Notes under the pieces: model-generated
Databases searched by the model: none
What the model saw: only the letters and a program-made list of their open reading frames with translations
What the model was told of the DNA's origin: nothing
Shown here: positions 4,001 to 22,388 of the stretch, one piece after another
Position numbering within the stretch: position 1 is the first letter of the stretch
Layout of the letters: each line of letters begins with the position of its first letter
IMG/VR virus record: IMGVR_UViG_3300022220_000024
Coordinates: 1-22,501 of that record
DNA from: a virus
Length of the DNA: 22,501 nt
Reading direction: 5' to 3' (one strand)
Translations under genes and position numbers: made by a program

Positions 4001-7000
4001 TTAATATATTTTTGAGTTTCGGTAGCTTCTATCTCTGTTATTATAAGTAACACTTAAATTCTTCTTTTTCAAGGTATCGTTTAGAATATCTAACTTGTGA
4101 TTTGTTTCGTTAAAATCTACTATTGTTGCACCTGTTGAAGTAGAACTAAATCTATTTATTCTTGGGTTAGCATAAAGGTAAGAATCTAAATTATGATTAG
4201 GAATTACTTTTGATCCTTTCGGTAATTCAACTAAAGTATCTGTACTAGGAGTAATATATTTCTTACCACTCGGCTCAATTACTAACTCTTTCCCTCTCTC
4301 ACCTACGATTGCATAACCACCAGGTGCGCTTGACGTACCTTCTGCGAATTGTGGTATCGGTGCTGCGATTGCTTTTGCTAATGCAGCAGCACCAGTAAGA
4401 CCAGCAGCAATAGAGCGTGGTAGTCTTGTAGCAGCTAGTCCGTCTTTCCACTGTGTTATGATTGCTAAAGCCGTTGTAGATATTATCGCTGCTATATTCA
4501 CCGCCTTATCAAACTTCGCTTGCCGTTGTCTAATTCTTAAACTTTCTTCCGCTAGTACTCTTTCTTGTGTAGCCCTTTGTAGTGTTAATCGTGTTATTTT
4601 CCTGTCTTTCTCCTCTTGTGTATCGGCACTATGGGTAATTAGTTTTTCTTCTAAATCATATCTTATTTTTAATGCGTTCATTTCAGCACCAATAGCTTCT
4701 AACCTTGCTTCGGTAGCAAGTGCGCTAAAGTCTTTAAGAGAACCAGCAAGTTCTTCTATAATTTTCTGCAAGGTTGCGTAATGCTTACGCATTTTCTCTA
4801 ATTCCTTTTCGTCTTGGAGTTCTTGTTTTTCTTCGTTCTCTTCTCTTAACTCTTGCGTTATTTTGTTTATATGCCTTTGAAGTTTAATTTTTTCGTCACC
4901 TAGAAGTTCTTGATTCTCTAATATTGTTTCAGCTATTTCTAGTTGCTCTATTAAACTTACTATTCCGCTTTGTTTTGATATTTCAAATTCTTTATATAGT
5001 GATTTTGAATGTTCTTCTGCCCTCTTTAATTCTTTTTCGTCTGCTTTAACTATTATATCATAGGATTTTTTCCTGTGTTCGGCTAAGACTTTTTCTCTTT
5101 CCCTTGTAGCTTTAACGTGAATTAATTTTATTTGACTTGTCGTTAGCTTCGATTGCCCTAACTCTTTCTTTTCTTGTGCGTCAACAATCGCTAACTTATT
5201 TTCTGCATATTGATAGGCTGCTTCTAATCTTTGGTCTAAACTGTTGTTTTCATTATCACGCAAATTCTTATTACCGTCAGATTGTATTTGCAGAAGTTCT
5301 ACCATTAAATCCCACTTAGCTTTCCTTTCCAATTCTGCTAATCTTGCTTTCTCTTTAGCAATTCTTTTTGCTTCTGCTGCTGCTGCTTTAGCACGTCTTT
5401 TTGCTGCTGCAATTTCTTCTTTAGTTAGTTCTGCCCCAGCCTGTTTTCCTGGTGTAGTCGGTTGTCTTACTAACTTTTTTTTATCCCCTACAAAATAGTC
5501 AACCGTTATAGGCTCACCGCTAGGACTTGCACCAGCTTTCCAACCTCTTAAAGCAGCATTACCAAGCGATTTAAAGTAATTATAATATCCTGTAAGTTTT
5601 GTACTTAAATCTGCTTTTAACGAAGCTAAATCACCACTAAAAATATCTTTTAATACCTTAGATAGTTTTACTGATTCTTTTTCCATTGCCTTAACGTGCG
5701 TCTTAAACATTTCCCCGAAAGCGTTTGTGGCAGACGATAAAAACTTTAAACGCTCTGCCCAAACGTCTAGTACTTTAGTTACAAAAGGAATCCATATTTT
5801 AGAATAAAACCAGCCTACTACACTTGCAAGTCTCTTGAAAATAGCACCTACCGTTTCAACTAAAGGCTTAAAAGAATTTACTAAGCTACTTGTTGACTTG
5901 CTTAATTTTTTAACCGTTTCATTACTTTCTTCTAATTTCTTAAAATTGCGGGGGATTTTTAAAATTTCTATTCCTAATTCCACAACAGCAGAAGTCAAAC
6001 TAGCAATAACAGGTAAAAGCGATACGCCTAATTCGGTTCTCATATTTTCCCACGCTGATTGCGCTCTTAATAGTGAGCTTTGCGTTAAGTCTATCGCCTT
6101 CCCGCTATTCTGTTGTTCTTCTTCAATTATCTTACCAACGGCTTCGGCTACTTGACCAACAGACGCAGAAGCTGCTGCAACACCACCCAACTTATCTTTT
6201 AGGGCGATTGCGCTAATACCTAGATTGTCAAGTATTAATGGTGATTTTCTACCGATACCTTTTACAATACTATCAACCAAATAATCTACGCTTTCTCCTG
6301 TTTCTAAGGCTCTTTGTTGTGCGAATCCAAATAACGTACCTAGCTGCTTAATCGGTACACCCAAGTTCTTAGCTTGTACACCCGCTTTCATTAGGTCTAA
6401 ATTATTAACCGTATTTTTTGTAGCCTTTTGTAGGTTAGATAATAGCTGTGGATCGTTTAGTTTGTCAAAGGCTATCTTAACACCTTCTAAAGTCCTAGCG
6501 TCACCCATTCCCTTTTTTATCTGTGAGAATACAGCAGCCATACCAGCACCTACGGAAAGAAAGCCTAACATAGTATATCTTAAACCGCCTAAAGCCTTGT
6601 TATAATTACCAATATTCAATCGTTGCTTTTCTACCGAATTAATATTTGCTTTTCTAAATTTATCCGCTTTAGCGATTGCCTTATTGTACGCTTTATTTAA
6701 TCTAACTCCTTCCTCTGTTGCCGTATTTAATTTTGCTTGTTCTCTCGTCCATTTGGCAATTAATAAATTAGCTCTGCCTATTGAATTTCTTGCAGCGTCT
6801 TTTAACTTCTTTTCTTCTCTTATTAGTCTATTTGTTTCTGCTAAATCTACTTTTCGCTGTATCGCTAATTTATGCGCCTTAGTTTCAGAAACTATTATCT
6901 TATGATTAGTTACAACAGCAGCCTTAACCGCCTTTTCTTGCTCTGTGAGTGCTTTAGTTACTTTTTTAATAGGTTCTGACGGATCACCCTTTTTACCTTC

Positions 7001-16290: not shown

Positions 16291-17907
16291 TTATGCTATC
16301 GTTCCTATTAAATATACTTTTAATCCAGCACCAGCTACCGTACTGCCTATGGTATCAATGTCAATCGTAATTTCCGCATCATTGGCGAGTGCTGTATCAC
16401 TTATAACAGGCGGTGTAGCTGCCGTTTCACTCGTTTTCTCTGTTGCGTCTATCGTAATCTTTGTACTCAATATCGTAGTACCGCTTTCGTTTATATCTAC
16501 CGTTAATACGCTTCCTGTGGGTGCTGTCGTTACACTTGCTCGTACCTCTGTTAAAGTCATTGCATAAGGCATACGGAAAGTAGTTACGGCTGTACCTGTT
16601 TCTAAGTCGGTTTCTTCGTCACTACAAGCCATAGATATTACCGCTAAACCTAAATCAACGTCTGCGTCGGGCATTGTAATTGTCCTAGTAGTAGCAGTAG
16701 TTATACCACTAGCGTCAAAGGCTATTTCCTTAGTTTCGTCTGCTTCGTCAAATATACGAAAGACATTATCGGGAAATTCTACGTCACCTGTAACACCACC
16801 ACCAGCAGCAGTACTAGGGAATAAACCCCTTAAATCTTCATTCTGAATAATGGTATAAGTACCCGCATTTTCACGCACTGTTAAACGTGCTATCAAGAAT
16901 CCTGTACCTCTAAAATCAGAAGGGATTGTATAGATAGCTGTATTGTTATCGTCATTACTAGCTTGACCACTATTATCATTAGGATATGCACCATTAGGAA
17001 CATTTACCATTAACTTACAATCTTCCTCTACCTCATTTACAACTCCCCAAATAACTAGATTATAGAAATCTGTATTAGCACCACCTAAAGCGTCACCATT
17101 AGCGTCGTCGGGAATACTCGTTAAAGTTAAATCACCAACACGATTATATGCCGTAGTAAAATCATTAACTACATAAATATCACTCGTAGAACCTGTGTCA
17201 AAAGCTGGGTAAGTATGGTCGTGTAACTGTAAAACACTACCACTACTCGTAGCTACGTCAAAAGTACTCGCACCAACCGTAGGCGTTAAAGCTACACCAC
17301 TTTCCCAAGTAGCAGGCTGCTGCCTTATCCAATAATTAATATGACTAGCGTGTCCATTATCATTACCACCCTTTAAGTGATCACTCCAAGCGTGAACTTT
17401 ATAAGCACCGTAAGTTTGTACACTAGCTGCACTCTGTACCAAAGCAGTACCAACAGGTGCATACTGCGCTGCTGGAAAACCTACCGTACTTGCCGTTAAA
17501 GTATTCGTACTCTGTAAAATGTAAATGTAATTAAGCTGCGGTGAAGTATCACTACCAGCAGTTAAAGCTACACTTGCCGTAGGAGTTGCGTCAAATGTAC
17601 TTTCTACACCATTAAAGATAATTTCTATATCTCCACCACCCGATAATTCAAAAGTAGCCGTAACAGTTACACCGTCACTCGTTACGTCAAAAGTAGTACC
17701 TTCAACCGTACTGCCATTAAAATAAGTATCTGTATCACTACCACCAGCAGCACCGAAATAATCTAAAGAAGACCAAGCCGTTACACCGTCACCCCACTTA
17801 AACTTTAAAGTGTCAGTTTCTAAACCCATTTCACCGTCTGCTAGTATCGGATCTTCAGTAGTCCAATCTGCTGCCGTGTCTCTGCGTAATTGTATAATAT
17901 CTGCCAT
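16291..17907 (-). CDS. Tail fibre / receptor-binding protein with Mtd-like N-terminal domain
   Basis: A 538-residue protein. Residues 4-51 (IIQLRRDTAADWTTEDPILA, GEMGLETDTLKFKWGDGVTA, WSSLDYF) match the N-terminal virion-attachment domain of Major tropism determinant-type receptor-binding proteins. A long Thr/Ser/Asp-rich beta region follows. It is then succeeded by the motif VFRIFDEADETKEIAFDASG with TTATTRTITMPDADVDLG, a linker common in phage fibres. The C-terminal ~120 residues form a beta-sandwich-like tip (FRMPYAMTLTEVRASVTTAP onward). No C-type lectin domain or reverse transcriptase is present, so this is not evidence for a diversity-generating element. It probably contacts the host surface. 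Confidence 0.82.
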   Translation of the reverse strand: MADIIQLRRDTAADWTTEDPILADGEMGLETDTLKFKWGDGVTAWSSLDYFGAAGGSDTDTYFNGSTVEGTTFDVTSDGVTVTATFELSGGGDIEIIFNGVESTFDATPTASVALTAGSDTSPQLNYIYILQSTNTLTASTVGFPAAQYAPVGTALVQSAASVQTYGAYKVHAWSDHLKGGNDNGHASHINYWIRQQPATWESGVALTPTVGASTFDVATSSGSVLQLHDHTYPAFDTGSTSDIYVVNDFTTAYNRVGDLTLTSIPDDANGDALGGANTDFYNLVIWGVVNEVEEDCKLMVNVPNGAYPNDNSGQASNDDNNTAIYTIPSDFRGTGFLIARLTVRENAGTYTIIQNEDLRGLFPSTAAGGGVTGDVEFPDNVFRIFDEADETKEIAFDASGITTATTRTITMPDADVDLGLAVISMACSDEETDLETGTAVTTFRMPYAMTLTEVRASVTTAPTGSVLTVDINESGTTILSTKITIDATEKTSETAATPPVISDTALANDAEITIDIDTIGSTVAGAGLKVYLIGTIA

Positions 17908-18437: not shown

Positions 18438-18470
18438 TTCCTATATAACCAAAATACAATCCAATGACTG

Positions 18471-18490
18471 CAAAGATAAGGTAAAAAATT
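18471..18490 (-). promoter_or_regulatory. Promoter-like element, downstream copy of an 18-bp repeat
   Basis: The minus strand reads AATTTTTTACCTTATCTTTG, ending in a TATCTTTG box. The first 18 bases are identical to the sequence just upstream of the zinc-ribbon gene (18721-18738). It abuts the stop codon of that gene and faces the terminator 35 bp downstream, so any transcript from it would be very short. Confidence 0.45.
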
Positions 18491-18714: not shown

Positions 18715-18718
18715 AACG

Positions 18719-18738
18719 CTAAGATAAGGTAAAAAATT
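18719..18738 (-). promoter_or_regulatory. Promoter-like element, upstream copy of an 18-bp repeat
   Basis: The minus strand reads AATTTTTTACCTTATCTTAG, 4 bp before the ATG of the zinc-ribbon gene. The first 18 bases match 18473-18490 exactly. Its TATCTTAG differs by one base from the TATCTTTG box seen elsewhere in the window. The very short gap to the start codon implies a leaderless message if it is a promoter. Confidence 0.4.
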
Positions 18739-18860
18739 ATTTACACGAAATGACCATTTAGATAAAGGGTAATAATGTGTAAATAGGGAGTACGCCCTAA
18801 ATGCCGAAAGCTAGTAATAGCAAGGTGTCCACCAAAACCACCAAAACCACTTTTGTAACC

Positions 18861-18895
18861 ACCAAAATAAAAGTGTATGCAATACCCATAGAATA
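18861..18895. repeat. Imperfect direct repeat, copy 1
   Basis: It begins ACCAAAATAA, continues GTGTATGCAATACC and ends TAGAATA. It matches 18991-19023 with two substitutions and a 2-nt length difference. The last third of this copy is also the first unit of the 11-bp array. A 7-bp inverted pair CACTTTT/AAAAGTG (18848-18854 and 18869-18875) lies over its start. Confidence 0.8.
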
Positions 18896-18955
18896 CCCAT
18901 ACGTTACCCAACAAATACCCATATAATACCCCTAAATCCCGTATAAATCCCGTAT
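18881..18955. repeat. Seven-unit 11-bp phased repeat array
   Basis: CCC triplets occur at 18885, 18896, 18907, 18918, 18929, 18938 and 18949, so the spacing is 11, 11, 11, 11, 9 and 11 bp. Four units share AATACCC followed by A or C, one is GTTACCC, and the last two are AAATCCCGTAT. An 11-bp unit does not preserve a reading frame, which argues against a protein repeat. It resembles iterons or a row of operator sites on one face of the helix. Confidence 0.8.
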
Positions 18956-18990
18956 AAAAGTAAAATTGTAGTACTACACTACCTACTACA

Positions 18991-19023
18991 ACCAAAATAA
19001 AGTTGTATGCAATACCTAGAATA
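18991..19023. repeat. Imperfect direct repeat, copy 2
   Basis: It begins exactly 130 bp after copy 1 and overlaps the 3' end of the methyltransferase gene (stop codon at 19016-19018). It shares ACCAAAATAA, TTGTATGCAATACC and TAGAATA with copy 1 apart from two substitutions and a 2-nt deletion. A 5-bp inverted pair ACAAC/GTTGT spans its start. Confidence 0.8.
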
Positions 19024-19744
19024 ACTTAAATTCAGAAGCCTTTACCCGTTCCCCTGCAATAGCATAATATTTAGCGTCCATTTCTATACCTATGCCATTC
19101 CTACCTGTGTTTTGACAAGCTACCATTGTGCTACCACTACCCATAGTAAAATCTAAAACAGTTTCGTTTTCGTTGGTGTAGGTTTTTACAAGGTATTCCA
19201 TTAAATCTAATGGTTTTTGTGTAGGGTGTATGTTTTTTTGAGTGTTAGAAAACCTTAATATTTGTCTTGGATAATTAGTGTATTTTCTTGTAAAACCACC
19301 TACCAATCCAGTTTTGCCATAAACGTTTGGCTGTTCATTGCTTTTTCTGTTTACTTTTTTTTCTTTTATGTCAATTAATCCTTGCGGATTATAGCTTGGT
19401 AGTTTTTTATAGAATAAAGAAATCGTTTCGTAAGATTTTAACGGCATTTTATTACAATTCCCAAATCCAATTGGCTTTGTTTTTTCCCATACCCAATCAT
19501 ACCTATAGTTTTTAATATTACTCATTCTTAAAGCACTACTAAATGGTTCACTACCAAATAAAACTATTGCACCGTTTGGTTTTATAATTCTATTAAGTTG
19601 TTCCCACATTAAATCAAAGTCAATAACACTATCCCATTTACACGCTGTCGTTCCGTATGGCGGATCTGTTATAATAGCGTCTATACTGCTATCCTCAATA
19701 CCTTGCATAACCTCTAAACAATCGCCTAATCTTAAATCTATCAT
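19016..19744 (-). CDS. DNA methyltransferase (N6/N4, beta class)
   Basis: A 242-residue DNA methyltransferase. The catalytic motif DPPYG (27-31) comes before the SAM-binding motif FTMGSGST (199-206), the order of beta-class N6-adenine/N4-cytosine enzymes. THPTQKPLDLMEYL precedes the SAM motif, as in that family. It transfers methyl groups from S-adenosylmethionine to a short DNA target. No partner endonuclease is adjacent, so it is probably solitary and may protect phage DNA from host restriction or act in regulation. Its ATG overlaps the terminase stop (TAATG). The stop codon lies within one copy of the direct repeat. Confidence 0.92.
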   Translation of the reverse strand: MIDLRLGDCLEVMQGIEDSSIDAIITDPPYGTTACKWDSVIDFDLMWEQLNRIIKPNGAIVLFGSEPFSSALRMSNIKNYRYDWVWEKTKPIGFGNCNKMPLKSYETISLFYKKLPSYNPQGLIDIKEKKVNRKSNEQPNVYGKTGLVGGFTRKYTNYPRQILRFSNTQKNIHPTQKPLDLMEYLVKTYTNENETVLDFTMGSGSTMVACQNTGRNGIGIEMDAKYYAIAGERVKASEFKLF

Positions 19745-21072
19745 TAATAACTACCTTTAGCAATAACAACATAGCGAATTGCGTCGATTAGATGATTCCA
19801 ATTATCAATAGGACGATCAAGGCTATTACCGTTTTTATCCACAGCATAACAATAACTAACTAATTCCCTCTGTAAATTAACACTCCTCTCCGTTACAAAT
19901 ATTTTCATTCCCAACATTAAACCAATTCCCGACATTATACTCCCTTGACCTTTCTTAGCTGGAATAATATTAAATCCCTTTCTTAACTGTGGGTACAACT
20001 CCAAATCCTTATTATCTAATATCCCAAACTTCTCAAAGCCATAATACAACCTTTGAATAGTCTTTGGCTCTGCACCGTCAGCTATTATCAACTGCTTTTC
20101 GTCAAAACCTAACTCACAATACTTAATACCTATCTCCTTTACTCCCATACCTAAATAGTTCAATTCGTCTAAATACAAGTTATTACCCTCAATCTTTACA
20201 TTTACCATTGCAGCTGGACTTGCCGTACCGAAATCCTGTCCAATAACCTCTCTAGCGTCTACCTCATTAAACTCGTCTAAAGTGATTGTAGAATAATTCT
20301 TGAATATTTGACCTTTCAAGCCTGTACTTGCATATCCTTTGATAGCCGTTAAATAATAATGTTCGTTATACAAATGACTTTCGGTATCCCCATAACCTTC
20401 GTATTGCTCAACTGTCTTTGCTGGTAGATACGGATTATCTTTGTAGCTTGTCTGCACTGTGTAAACTCCTTTAATATCTTTAGGCTGCAATTTAAAGTAA
20501 CCGTCCTTTTCACTCGGCATTAAATTAAAATACCGCTTTACGATCCAATGATTAATGTCCGGAGTATTTAATATGATTATGATAAAAGAGTTCGGCTTAC
20601 GAATACTATCGGCAAAGGTGTTATACTTATCCTGGTCTCTAATATCCTCTGCCTCTTCAATTACTGCTATATCAATGTCTGAAACCGACTTGAGGTTAGC
20701 GCGTTGACTACTACTCGAAGCTCTAAAACCTTTAGTGAATACCGACATTCGACCTGTTGCAATGTCTTTAATACCTGTATCCATACGAGTATAGTAACCG
20801 TCTAAGAATCCACTTGTATTTGCAGTATCGTATCTCATTAATACTTCATTTAAGATTGATTCTTTAATGTGGGCTTTCTCATCCCTTAATATTTGAATAC
20901 GTTTCTTACCTATCGTAGAATGGTAAGCAACCGCTTTACTTACTTCGTAAGTCTTCGATCCACCGCGTCCACCAATGAAGATAAGTAAACTACAATCTGC
21001 TGGAATATCGTACAATATCTTGAATGGTTCAAGACATTTTACATTCAACTGTGGTATTGCTAATTCAGTCAT
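19744..21072 (-). CDS. terL: Terminase large subunit
   Basis: A 442-residue packaging ATPase/nuclease. Walker A GGRGGSKT lies at about 34-41 and Walker B IDIAVIEEAED at about 133-143. The coupling motif LNTP follows (about 168-171). The C-terminal nuclease has GQDFG (278-282), ADGAEPK (331-337) and the acidic NHLIDAIRYV near the end. This is a Terminase_3/PBSX-type architecture. The ATG at 21072 (MTELAIPQLN) is chosen over an in-frame TTG six bases upstream. It drives DNA into the prohead through the portal and cuts the concatemer. It is coupled to the methyltransferase by TAATG. Confidence 0.95.
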   Translation of the reverse strand: MTELAIPQLNVKCLEPFKILYDIPADCSLLIFIGGRGGSKTYEVSKAVAYHSTIGKKRIQILRDEKAHIKESILNEVLMRYDTANTSGFLDGYYTRMDTGIKDIATGRMSVFTKGFRASSSSQRANLKSVSDIDIAVIEEAEDIRDQDKYNTFADSIRKPNSFIIIILNTPDINHWIVKRYFNLMPSEKDGYFKLQPKDIKGVYTVQTSYKDNPYLPAKTVEQYEGYGDTESHLYNEHYYLTAIKGYASTGLKGQIFKNYSTITLDEFNEVDAREVIGQDFGTASPAAMVNVKIEGNNLYLDELNYLGMGVKEIGIKYCELGFDEKQLIIADGAEPKTIQRLYYGFEKFGILDNKDLELYPQLRKGFNIIPAKKGQGSIMSGIGLMLGMKIFVTERSVNLQRELVSYCYAVDKNGNSLDRPIDNWNHLIDAIRYVVIAKGSY

Positions 21073-21078
21073 AATCAA

Positions 21079-21378
21079 TTATTTATAACGGTTACTTAAA
21101 GTTATTATTTCACTGCGCAAATTTACTGCGTAAAAGCCTGTGAATATAATATTTTGGTGGATTGATTTGATTAGCTTATGGTGGACCTTTGGTATCCTTT
21201 GTTGGTCCTGTGGTCCTGTTAGTGGTCCAATATTCACTATTGATTTTAACGTACCAAATTTGGCATATCTTTTTCGAGTTAACAAAGTACCCATAAAAGT
21301 ATTTAAGATTGAAATTTGCCCTATTTCTGTGCCATTAAAAGGTATTGTAGGTATTAAAGATAACTGCTGTTTATTCAA
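21079..21378 (-). CDS. Doubtful ORF filling the gap between small and large terminase
   Basis: A 99-codon frame that begins at TTG 21378, overlaps the small-terminase stop by 8 bp and ends 6 bp before the large-terminase ATG. It therefore fits the gap well. The translated sequence (starting MNKQQLSLIPTIPFNG; GPLTGPQDQQRIPKVHHKL in the middle) has no recognised domain. There is no early ATG. The middle carries four GGWCC motifs in 46 bp. It could be a small coupled gene or a non-coding spacer with a binding site. The opposite-strand frame is Trp/Cys/Ile-rich and less plausible. Confidence 0.35.
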   Translation of the reverse strand: MNKQQLSLIPTIPFNGTEIGQISILNTFMGTLLTRKRYAKFGTLKSIVNIGPLTGPQDQQRIPKVHHKLIKSIHQNIIFTGFYAVNLRSEIITLSNRYK

Positions 21379-21778
21379 AGGTAACTTTTAAATCATTCAA
21401 ATCAATCTGTTTTACATTTTGGTTAATCGTCTGTGGTGCTTTACCAATAAGCCTATCCAGGCAAGCGTTGAATGCTGCGGTATCGCTCTCTATGACTGCC
21501 TTTCGTACTTGAGTTAGGATTAGTAAAATCTCTAAAGTTATTTCGTTATTGGCTAATCCTAAGCCTAACTTGTCGCTTAACTCCTTTGCCTGTGTCAACG
21601 CCTGTCCTGTTATCGCTGTACGTGCTAAAGCTTCTAAAGTTCTACGCTTCCTTTGCCCTCTTGACATTGCTTCCTTACTCGGTTGATAGTCCTTTGAAAA
21701 CTTTACTCCTTTCTTGATATTTTCTTTACCAATTTCGATATATGATTTTCTATCGCTGTTGCTATCGTTATTCACCAT
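21371..21778 (-). CDS. terS: Terminase small subunit
   Basis: A 135-residue protein upstream of the large terminase. The N-terminal segment (FSKDYQPSKEAMSRGQRKRR) matches the Gly-rich basic opening of small terminase-type proteins found in such phages. A helical core follows (TLEALARTAITGQALTQAKE, then EITLEILLILTQVRKAVIES). It ends in IGKAPQTINQ. The protein would recognise phage DNA and recruit the large subunit. The ATG at 21778 is preferred over a TTG three bases upstream. A TACTTTTG box lies 5 bp before it. Confidence 0.82.
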   Translation of the reverse strand: MVNNDSNSDRKSYIEIGKENIKKGVKFSKDYQPSKEAMSRGQRKRRTLEALARTAITGQALTQAKELSDKLGLGLANNEITLEILLILTQVRKAVIESDTAAFNACLDRLIGKAPQTINQNVKQIDLNDLKVTFE

Positions 21779-21783
21779 CAACC

Positions 21784-21791
21784 CAAAAGTA
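21784..21791 (-). promoter_or_regulatory. TACTTTTG -7 box upstream of small terminase
   Basis: TACTTTTG on the minus strand fits TAnnTTTG and lies 5 bp before the small-terminase ATG, in the 24-bp gap after the HTH gene. A TATTTTTTG stretch precedes it. No -33 TTG is seen at the usual spacing. Confidence 0.35.
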
Positions 21792-21802
21792 CAAAAAATA
21801 TT

Positions 21803-22021
21803 TTAATTGCTGTTGATTATCAATTTACCGTTAACGATTTTAGTTGAATTGCCTAACGATTTTCTTTTGTGCTGTCCTTTGCCTTTTCCTTTTGCTGGTA
21901 TTCCAAATTCTTTTAAAATTTTCATTAGCGTTGGCAAACTCATTCCAAGCTCTTTTGCTAACTCTCTTGAATTACTATTGTAATACTTTTCCTTTAACTG
22001 TAATTTGCTGTATTCTTTCAT
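21803..22021 (-). CDS. Small helix-turn-helix DNA-binding protein
   Basis: A 72-residue protein. Residues about 17-39 (SNSRELAKELGMSLPTLMKI...) form a helix-turn-helix of the recombinase/resolvase or AsnC-like type, with the GMSLPTL turn. A basic Gly/Lys-rich tail (AKGKGKGQHKRK) follows. It probably binds DNA. As the first gene of the leftward late block it could be a regulator of late transcription, a binder of the adjacent repeats, or a packaging accessory. The choice among these is inference. ATG start at 22021 is preceded by TACCTTTA, one mismatch from the -7 consensus. Confidence 0.78.
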   Translation of the reverse strand: MKEYSKLQLKEKYYNSNSRELAKELGMSLPTLMKILKEFGIPAKGKGKGQHKRKSLGNSTKIVNGKLIINSN

Positions 22022-22210
22022 TTCTTAAAGGTACTAAATTATAAGCAGAAAAAAAACAACAAAAAAGATAGTATTTATTTTATTTCTTTTTATTCATTTC
22101 CTTTTATTGCTATAAGGGTGCCCAGTAGCCTCCCTAATAGCCCCCCTATGAACATACCATAAATAGAAGCATACAAGTATATAAGAAAAATGTAATATAA
22201 AAAACATTAC

Positions 22211-22259
22211 AGTATTGCAATACTATCGAAAATACTCCTAGAATACTATCAAAATACTC
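22211..22259. repeat. Palindrome plus phased AATACT repeats
   Basis: AGTATTGCAATACT (22211-22224) is a perfect 14-bp palindrome. AATACT then recurs at 22219, 22231, 22242 and 22253, spaced 12, 11 and 11 bp. Two longer units, AATACTATCGAAAATACTC (22219-22237) and AATACTATCAAAATACTC (22242-22259), differ by one base. This is the layout of an operator array for a dimeric regulator. Confidence 0.75.
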
Positions 22260-22380
22260 TTATTTGAGCTGGTAAAATTCCCTATTATTTAAGCATTTTT
22301 ACCACTATATATATGAGCTTATAATTGTTAATGTATAGTTATTCAATATAATAACTTATGTAAAGTATTCTAGTGTTACC

Positions 22381-22388
22381 TATCTTTG
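22381..22388 (+). promoter_or_regulatory. TATCTTTG -7 box for rightward gene
   Basis: TATCTTTG fits TAnnTTTG and is preceded by TTACC, as in the boxes around the zinc-ribbon gene. It lies 26 bp before the plus-strand ATG at 22415, a normal leader length. AGTATTCTAG, an inverted copy of a repeat in the nearby array, lies 8-17 bp upstream, in the spacer region where a repressor could act. Confidence 0.6.

Follow-up and report, generated by a model that had tools for sequence, protein, structure and literature searches.

The whole IMG/VR record IMGVR_UViG_3300022220_000024 (22,501 bases, classed as linear and probably a fragment; hereafter, the window) carries two arrays of short direct repeats, spaced about 11 bp apart, on either side of the packaging (terminase) genes of a phage. 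In leftward order, the window encodes a 72-aa helix-turn-helix (HTH) protein, a candidate small terminase of 136 aa, the large terminase subunit (TerL), a DNA methyltransferase, and, beyond a 301-base noncoding gap, a 74-aa protein followed by structural genes that include portal and capsid. Array 1 lies in the gap between the methyltransferase and 74-aa genes, and array 2 in the divergent noncoding region ahead of a rightward gene that starts at ATG 22416 (Table 1). We infer a Bacteroidota host from the nearest named phages (of Polaribacter, Flavobacterium, and Cellulophaga) and one Chitinophagaceae contig. Searches against annotated phages found no match to the window at near DNA identity and, for the array region at larger distance, nothing longer than 30 bases; capsid and portal searches returned no close relative, and the best TerL relatives (53 to 59%) have gene orders different from that of the window.

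Table 1. Arrays, repeats, putative promoter elements, and neighboring genes in the window
Feature	Position	Strand	Remarks
Array 1	18881-18955	+	Noncoding; five TACCC cores, then two AAATCCC units
29-nt repeat, copy 1 (ACCACCAAAATAAAAGTGTATGCAATACC)	18858-18886	+	Terminates with the first unit of array 1; contains GTATGCAATAC
29-nt repeat, copy 2 (ACAACCAAAATAAAGTTGTATGCAATACC)	18988-19016	+	90% identical to copy 1, 130 bp further on
12-bp palindrome (TGTAGTACTACA)	18967-18978	.	Perfect; adjoins array 1
Array 2	22219-22258	+	AATACT at 22219, 22231, 22242, and 22253 (spacing 12, 11, and 11 bp); between divergent genes
14-bp palindrome (AGTATTGCAATACT)	22211-22224	.	Perfect; longest in the window; overlaps first unit of array 2
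AGTATTCTAG	22364-22373	-	Exact inverted copy of CTAGAATACT (22238-22247); between -33 and -7 of putative rightward promoter
GATAGTATT	22067-22075	-	Inverted copy of AATACTATC units of array 2; overlaps TATCTTTT element
TATCTTTG	22381-22388	+	Bacteroidota-type -7 element, 35 bases ahead of the rightward ATG
TATCTTAG	18719-18726	-	Imperfect -7 element upstream of 74-aa gene; ~155 bp from array 1
TerL	19744-21078	-	Pfam Terminase_3
DNA N6/N4 methyltransferase	19016-19744	-	Final gene ahead of array 1
72-aa HTH protein	21803-22021	-	Three helices predicted; nearest gene left of array 2

Both arrays depart from chance

Array 1 consists of seven units (four AATACCC, one GTTACCC, and two AAATCCC) whose CCC triplets start at 18885, 18896, 18907, 18918, 18929, 18938, and 18949, i.e., at spacings of 11, 11, 11, 11, 9, and 11 bp. 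A first-pass annotation, made from the letters and their open reading frames, had reported these spacings and those of array 2, and both were confirmed. It had also assigned the core AATAC to both arrays, which holds for the four units of array 2. Array 1 is better described by TACCC, because five such cores (starting at 18883, 18894, 18905, 18916, and 18927) follow one another at exactly 11 bp, whereas AATAC alone makes a chain of only two; the AAATCCC units start at 18934 and 18945. Whole-window dinucleotide shuffles (n = 300) never produced an AATAC chain longer than two, and none of 2,000 local shuffles reached either a TACCC chain of five or an AATAC chain of four. When chains of any 5-mer were counted, four units arose in 1 of 1,000 shuffles of the array 1 region (region A) and five never, with a maximum of three in shuffles of the noncoding region around array 2 (region B). 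The enrichment over shuffled sequence on which the first-pass annotation depended was thus borne out, the arrays being (almost) never matched in either kind of shuffle. They are the only chains of at least four units in the record, and we conclude that both are real.

The features that tie one array to the other, namely, the AATAC core, the orientation, and a dyad, GTAT(T)GCAATAC, are no more than suggestive. The dyad opens both arrays (at 18875 and 22212) and recurs at 19005, in the second copy of the 29-nt repeat; by a post hoc count, 0.0045 occurrences are expected per 4.5 kb. At the opening of array 2 it takes the form of the perfect palindrome AGTATTGCAATACT, and the record contains just two perfect palindromes of at least 12 nt, one in each array region. 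Both arrays are oriented alike relative to late transcription. The 8-mer TAGAATAC, singled out earlier as common to the two arrays, does occur in both but is not significant, because the two noncoding regions share 12 8-mers versus 14.5 expected in shuffles.

The gap array recurs in other phages, in some together with an array inside a putative initiator gene

We scanned IMG/VR for stretches with four exact cores at 11 bp, which yielded 114 stretches for TACCC, 66 for AATAC, and 56 for the control core CTCAC. In what follows, L-numbers denote loci and G-numbers longer contigs used for comparison, drawn from IMG/VR and named phages. In locus L243, retrieved with AATAC, GTATTACTAGC units recur every 11 bp in the gap that separates TerL from the first structural gene; on the TerL strand these read GTATT, i.e., with the core and orientation seen in the window. 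A gap chain of at least three units at 10 to 13 bp is present in 19 of the 19 near relatives in this group that are readable beyond TerL, although several of these loci are near-identical and not all are independent. Their units, 11 bp apart in the loci laid out, are mostly GTAGCAATGC(C/T), then TAAAAGAATAGAAAAGAAAAG, and in the GCAATGC members the array lies 91 to 115 bp ahead of the first structural gene. Another lineage (L220, L221, L228, L230, and L233) carries AGCAAATG arrays ~110 bases after the methyltransferase, in a noncoding gap of 438 to 578 bases ahead of a structural gene; in the 30-kb contig G001, the gap is the sole place with an array of this lineage. Beside most gap arrays of these other phages, purine content reaches 0.74 to 0.82 over 50 nt. 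The gap after the methyltransferase also harbors, in three phages, a hairpin with an identical loop, AGTCGGCAAAAGAGCGTT, and a covarying stem, followed by a T run (L220, 939-968; L228, ~4793-4826; L172, ~5338-5365), which has no match in Rfam.

In five contigs of the L243 group (G006, G007, G008, G010, and G011), the gap iteron recurs 7.6 to 8.5 kb away, in frame within a gene for a 193- to 194-aa protein that directly precedes the DnaB helicase gene, so that one iteron occupies two places, one of them in a putative initiator gene. In-gene and gap sites have both the iteron and a purine-rich tail in common. The junction is GCAATGCTAAAAGAA at both sites in G006, G007, and G011 and GCAATGCTAAC at both sites in G008; because it is identical within each contig, the two sites vary together. 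G010, whose gap array comprises two full units only, was left out of this comparison. The 194-aa protein matches nothing in Pfam and, in PHROG, unnamed profiles only, and a short relative in G001 matches a primosomal protein profile; its place, the in-frame iterons, and this relative suggest that it is a replication initiator. GCAATGC-like units with a purine-rich tail lie in the homologous gene of the complete phages morran9-1 and Arctus_1 as well. Many TACCC and some AATAC arrays elsewhere are in frame in replication-initiator-like genes, often followed by purine-rich DNA, and the PHROG profiles for the array-bearing genes tested are replisome organizer or replication initiation O-like. The Polaribacter phages Danklef_1 and Freya_1 each have a single chain of at least four units, within a gene annotated as a transcriptional regulator. 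These two genes (L370, 29039-29929, and L366, 36748-37638) match replisome organizer and DnaD-like profiles. No description of paired arrays in Bacteroidota phages was found in the literature searched, which is not proof of absence.

Sequence context of the arrays

The 60 bases to the right of array 1 are 28% GC. The array region has no Rfam match to an RNA element and an ordinary leftward-strand fold (z, -0.14); as DNA, it folds with a z of -1.86, mainly owing to the two flanking dyads. Two 21-nt copies (18470-18490 and 18718-18738; 95% identical, each with a Bacteroidota-type -7 element) flank the 74-aa gene, which encodes a CxxC protein and is followed by a terminator-like hairpin at 18444-18408. 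With these repeats and this hairpin, the 74-aa gene looks like a moron insertion. Further into the window, a 538-aa protein (16291-17907) has an N-terminal Major tropism determinant domain (Mtd_N, 2.3e-12).

Region B is 25% GC and resembles an operator region, its promoters being consensus matches only. The Bacteroidota -7 consensus is TAHHTTTG (PMC6847099), to which TATCTTTG conforms; this element occurs five times in the window, four of them intergenic and directly ahead of genes (at 18478, 18395, 14929, and 22381). The TATCTTTT element would drive the leftward HTH and terminase genes. Single half-sites at 22364 and 22067 fall on the putative -7/-33 regions, again as judged from consensus matches. 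Array 2 fits an operator between divergent promoters, putatively bound by the binder of array 1 or by another protein, and this role is no less likely for it than an origin-like one. Late-gene control, of which the first-pass annotation named silencing, may concern mainly array 2.

Possible roles of the arrays

The gp38 protein of phage SPP1 recognizes direct repeats in two origins, oriL within its own gene 38 and oriR, which along with three moron genes breaks up the structural region (PMC6316719). Bound to oriR, gp38 is believed to stall the fork and thereby trigger the switch to concatemer synthesis (PMC3485210). The direct repeats of array 1 are evenly phased and share a core, as is typical of iteron origins, and, like a second array of the SPP1 type, the array lies in the morphogenesis region, with the terminase and methyltransferase genes on one side and structural genes on the other. 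We take it as an oriR-like, putatively initiator-binding array because it sits in the place corresponding to that of SPP1, beside the moron-like 74-aa gene, and consider this about as probable as its opposite. Our favored reading, in which both arrays are helically phased sites for putative protein binding, array 1 most likely of the oriR kind and array 2 most likely of the operator type, falls just short of an even chance. An initiator encoded outside the fragment would line up head to tail along one DNA face on the array 1 units, and the array would act within the packaging/structural gap as a second, late origin or, alternatively, as a fork barrier that helps replication change over to concatemers for packaging. 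The ligand of array 2, whose AATAC core lies between divergent promoters, would be that same protein or a different phage regulator. Such an initiator is a likelier binder of array 1 than the 72-aa protein proposed in the first-pass annotation, which does look like an HTH protein but has no significant fold match and is tied to the sites by nothing. The repeats, with their spacing and position, are observed, as is the pairing of arrays in the L243 group; protein binding, an origin or barrier function, and a single protein acting on both window arrays are inferred. This last idea, also put forward in the first-pass annotation, has a precedent in the five L243-group contigs, whereas the window cores have only AATAC in common and no excess of shared 8-mers.

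Several results weigh against the favored reading. The best 40 nt in the array 1 region reach a purine content of 0.675 and lie away from the array, and no clear purine-rich tail was found beside it. No replication module or initiator gene was recognized in the 22.5-kb record, itself a fragment. For the origin function suggested earlier, the iteron and tail repeated in the putative initiator gene and gap of the L243-group contigs are a precedent in other phages. Arrays at 11 bp are common and the core alone says little, because the control core was found almost as often as AATAC; we therefore rejected the core as a diagnostic. Two arrays are not a general rule: of a further 17 contigs bearing TACCC or AATAC arrays, 16 have the array at a single place, and in TACCC phages with a nearby TerL the examined locus contained no second one. 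The remaining contig, G025 (L242), has two AATACAAC arrays in opposite orientation ~290 bases apart (21424-21461 and 21711-21748). The near L243-group loci have a gap array, but only 1 of 14 more distant relatives by TerL has a gap array, and morran9-1 and Arctus_1 (complete Flavobacterium and Leeuwenhoekiella phages) have none in their short TerL-portal gap. Cumulative GC skew, advanced earlier as a check, does not change sign at either array or anywhere else in the window, nor at the array in G001, and was discarded as an origin signal. Taken together, the observation made in the first-pass annotation was confirmed and its interpretation partly supported.

It is possible, if on balance doubtful, that the two arrays are unrelated, array 1 representing initiator iterons and array 2 the operator of a different protein, with AATAC in common by chance. 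The probabilities of this explanation and of the favored reading overlap because both read array 1 in the same way and differ only on array 2. The unremarkable number of common 8-mers, the distinct conserved cores (TACCC in array 1 and AATACT in array 2), and the abundance of 11-bp arrays with many cores speak for unrelated arrays; against them, orientation, 5-bp core, and GTAT(T)GCAATAC agree at both places, and paired arrays with the same core do exist in the L243 group. We regard it as rather unlikely that a phage transcription regulator, possibly the 72-aa HTH protein or an early protein, uses both arrays as operators to control the two leftward late operons. Each array is ~150 bp upstream of a leftward -7 element, which suits this idea but is far for a bacterial activator. 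The place of array 2 between divergent promoters, the inverted half-sites on the rightward promoter spacer and on the leftward TATCTTTT element, the TATCTTTG elements directly upstream of genes, and the like orientation relative to late transcription are all in keeping with late-operon operators. However, the promoters are consensus matches, no binder is known, and the module inside the replication-initiator gene of the L243 group would be left unexplained.

That same module bears on two further explanations. Packaging sites (pac/cos) usually lie upstream of small-terminase genes, and array 2 is indeed upstream of the HTH and putative small-terminase genes, with both arrays flanking the terminase genes. 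Duplication of the gap array in the replication-initiator gene points to the initiator rather than the terminase, making it improbable that array 2 (or array 1) is a packaging site bound by the small terminase. Partition systems of the ParR type use 11-bp direct repeats like those in the window, and a centromere-like site of a plasmid-like prophage would account for them. The neighbors of the arrays are terminase, methyltransferase, and structural genes, however, no partition gene was recognized among the window proteins scanned (the genome being incomplete), and the L243-group gap arrays track the initiator gene. A partition site is accordingly the least probable of the explanations considered, in line with the lack of any support found for the segregation role mentioned in the first-pass annotation.

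The favored reading can be extended to an undescribed, widespread two-origin system of Bacteroidota phages, in which iterons are duplicated in the gap and a late-bound initiator blocks or restarts replication, coupling concatemers to packaging, while one protein that also binds array 2 coordinates replication, packaging, and late expression. We consider this extension unlikely.

Comparison with known systems

The window arrays resemble in-gene iterons of the lambda O type (PHROG replisome organizer or replication initiation O-like) in being 11-bp direct repeats, and TACCC/AATAC arrays elsewhere do lie in such genes; they differ in being noncoding and beside packaging and structural genes. Tandem half-site operators, such as the PhoB-type 11-bp direct repeats and the TTGC-N6-TTGC site of lambda CII, likewise present short cores head to tail on one DNA face. 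The window arrays have more units and are farther from the promoter, and no such regulator was identified in the window. The likeness to SPP1 lies in two widely separated arrays of direct repeats, of which one, along with moron genes, breaks into the structural region; in the L243 group, moreover, one array is inside the initiator gene, as is oriL. Host phylum and repeat sequences are other than in SPP1. In the window, the initiator gene would be outside the record, the DNA beside array 1 showed no clear unwinding element, and the two noncoding arrays have only AATAC in common. The two-array layout is of a kind known from SPP1; what makes it a variant is that it recurs in other phages, where the two sites covary, and that a further array lies upstream of the terminase operon. 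A second initiator site in the late region has so far been studied mainly in SPP1. A two-site layout in several phages of another phylum, with sites that covary, would make the concatemer-switch idea testable by comparison, and the paired layout gives a place to look for origins in poorly studied Bacteroidota phages.

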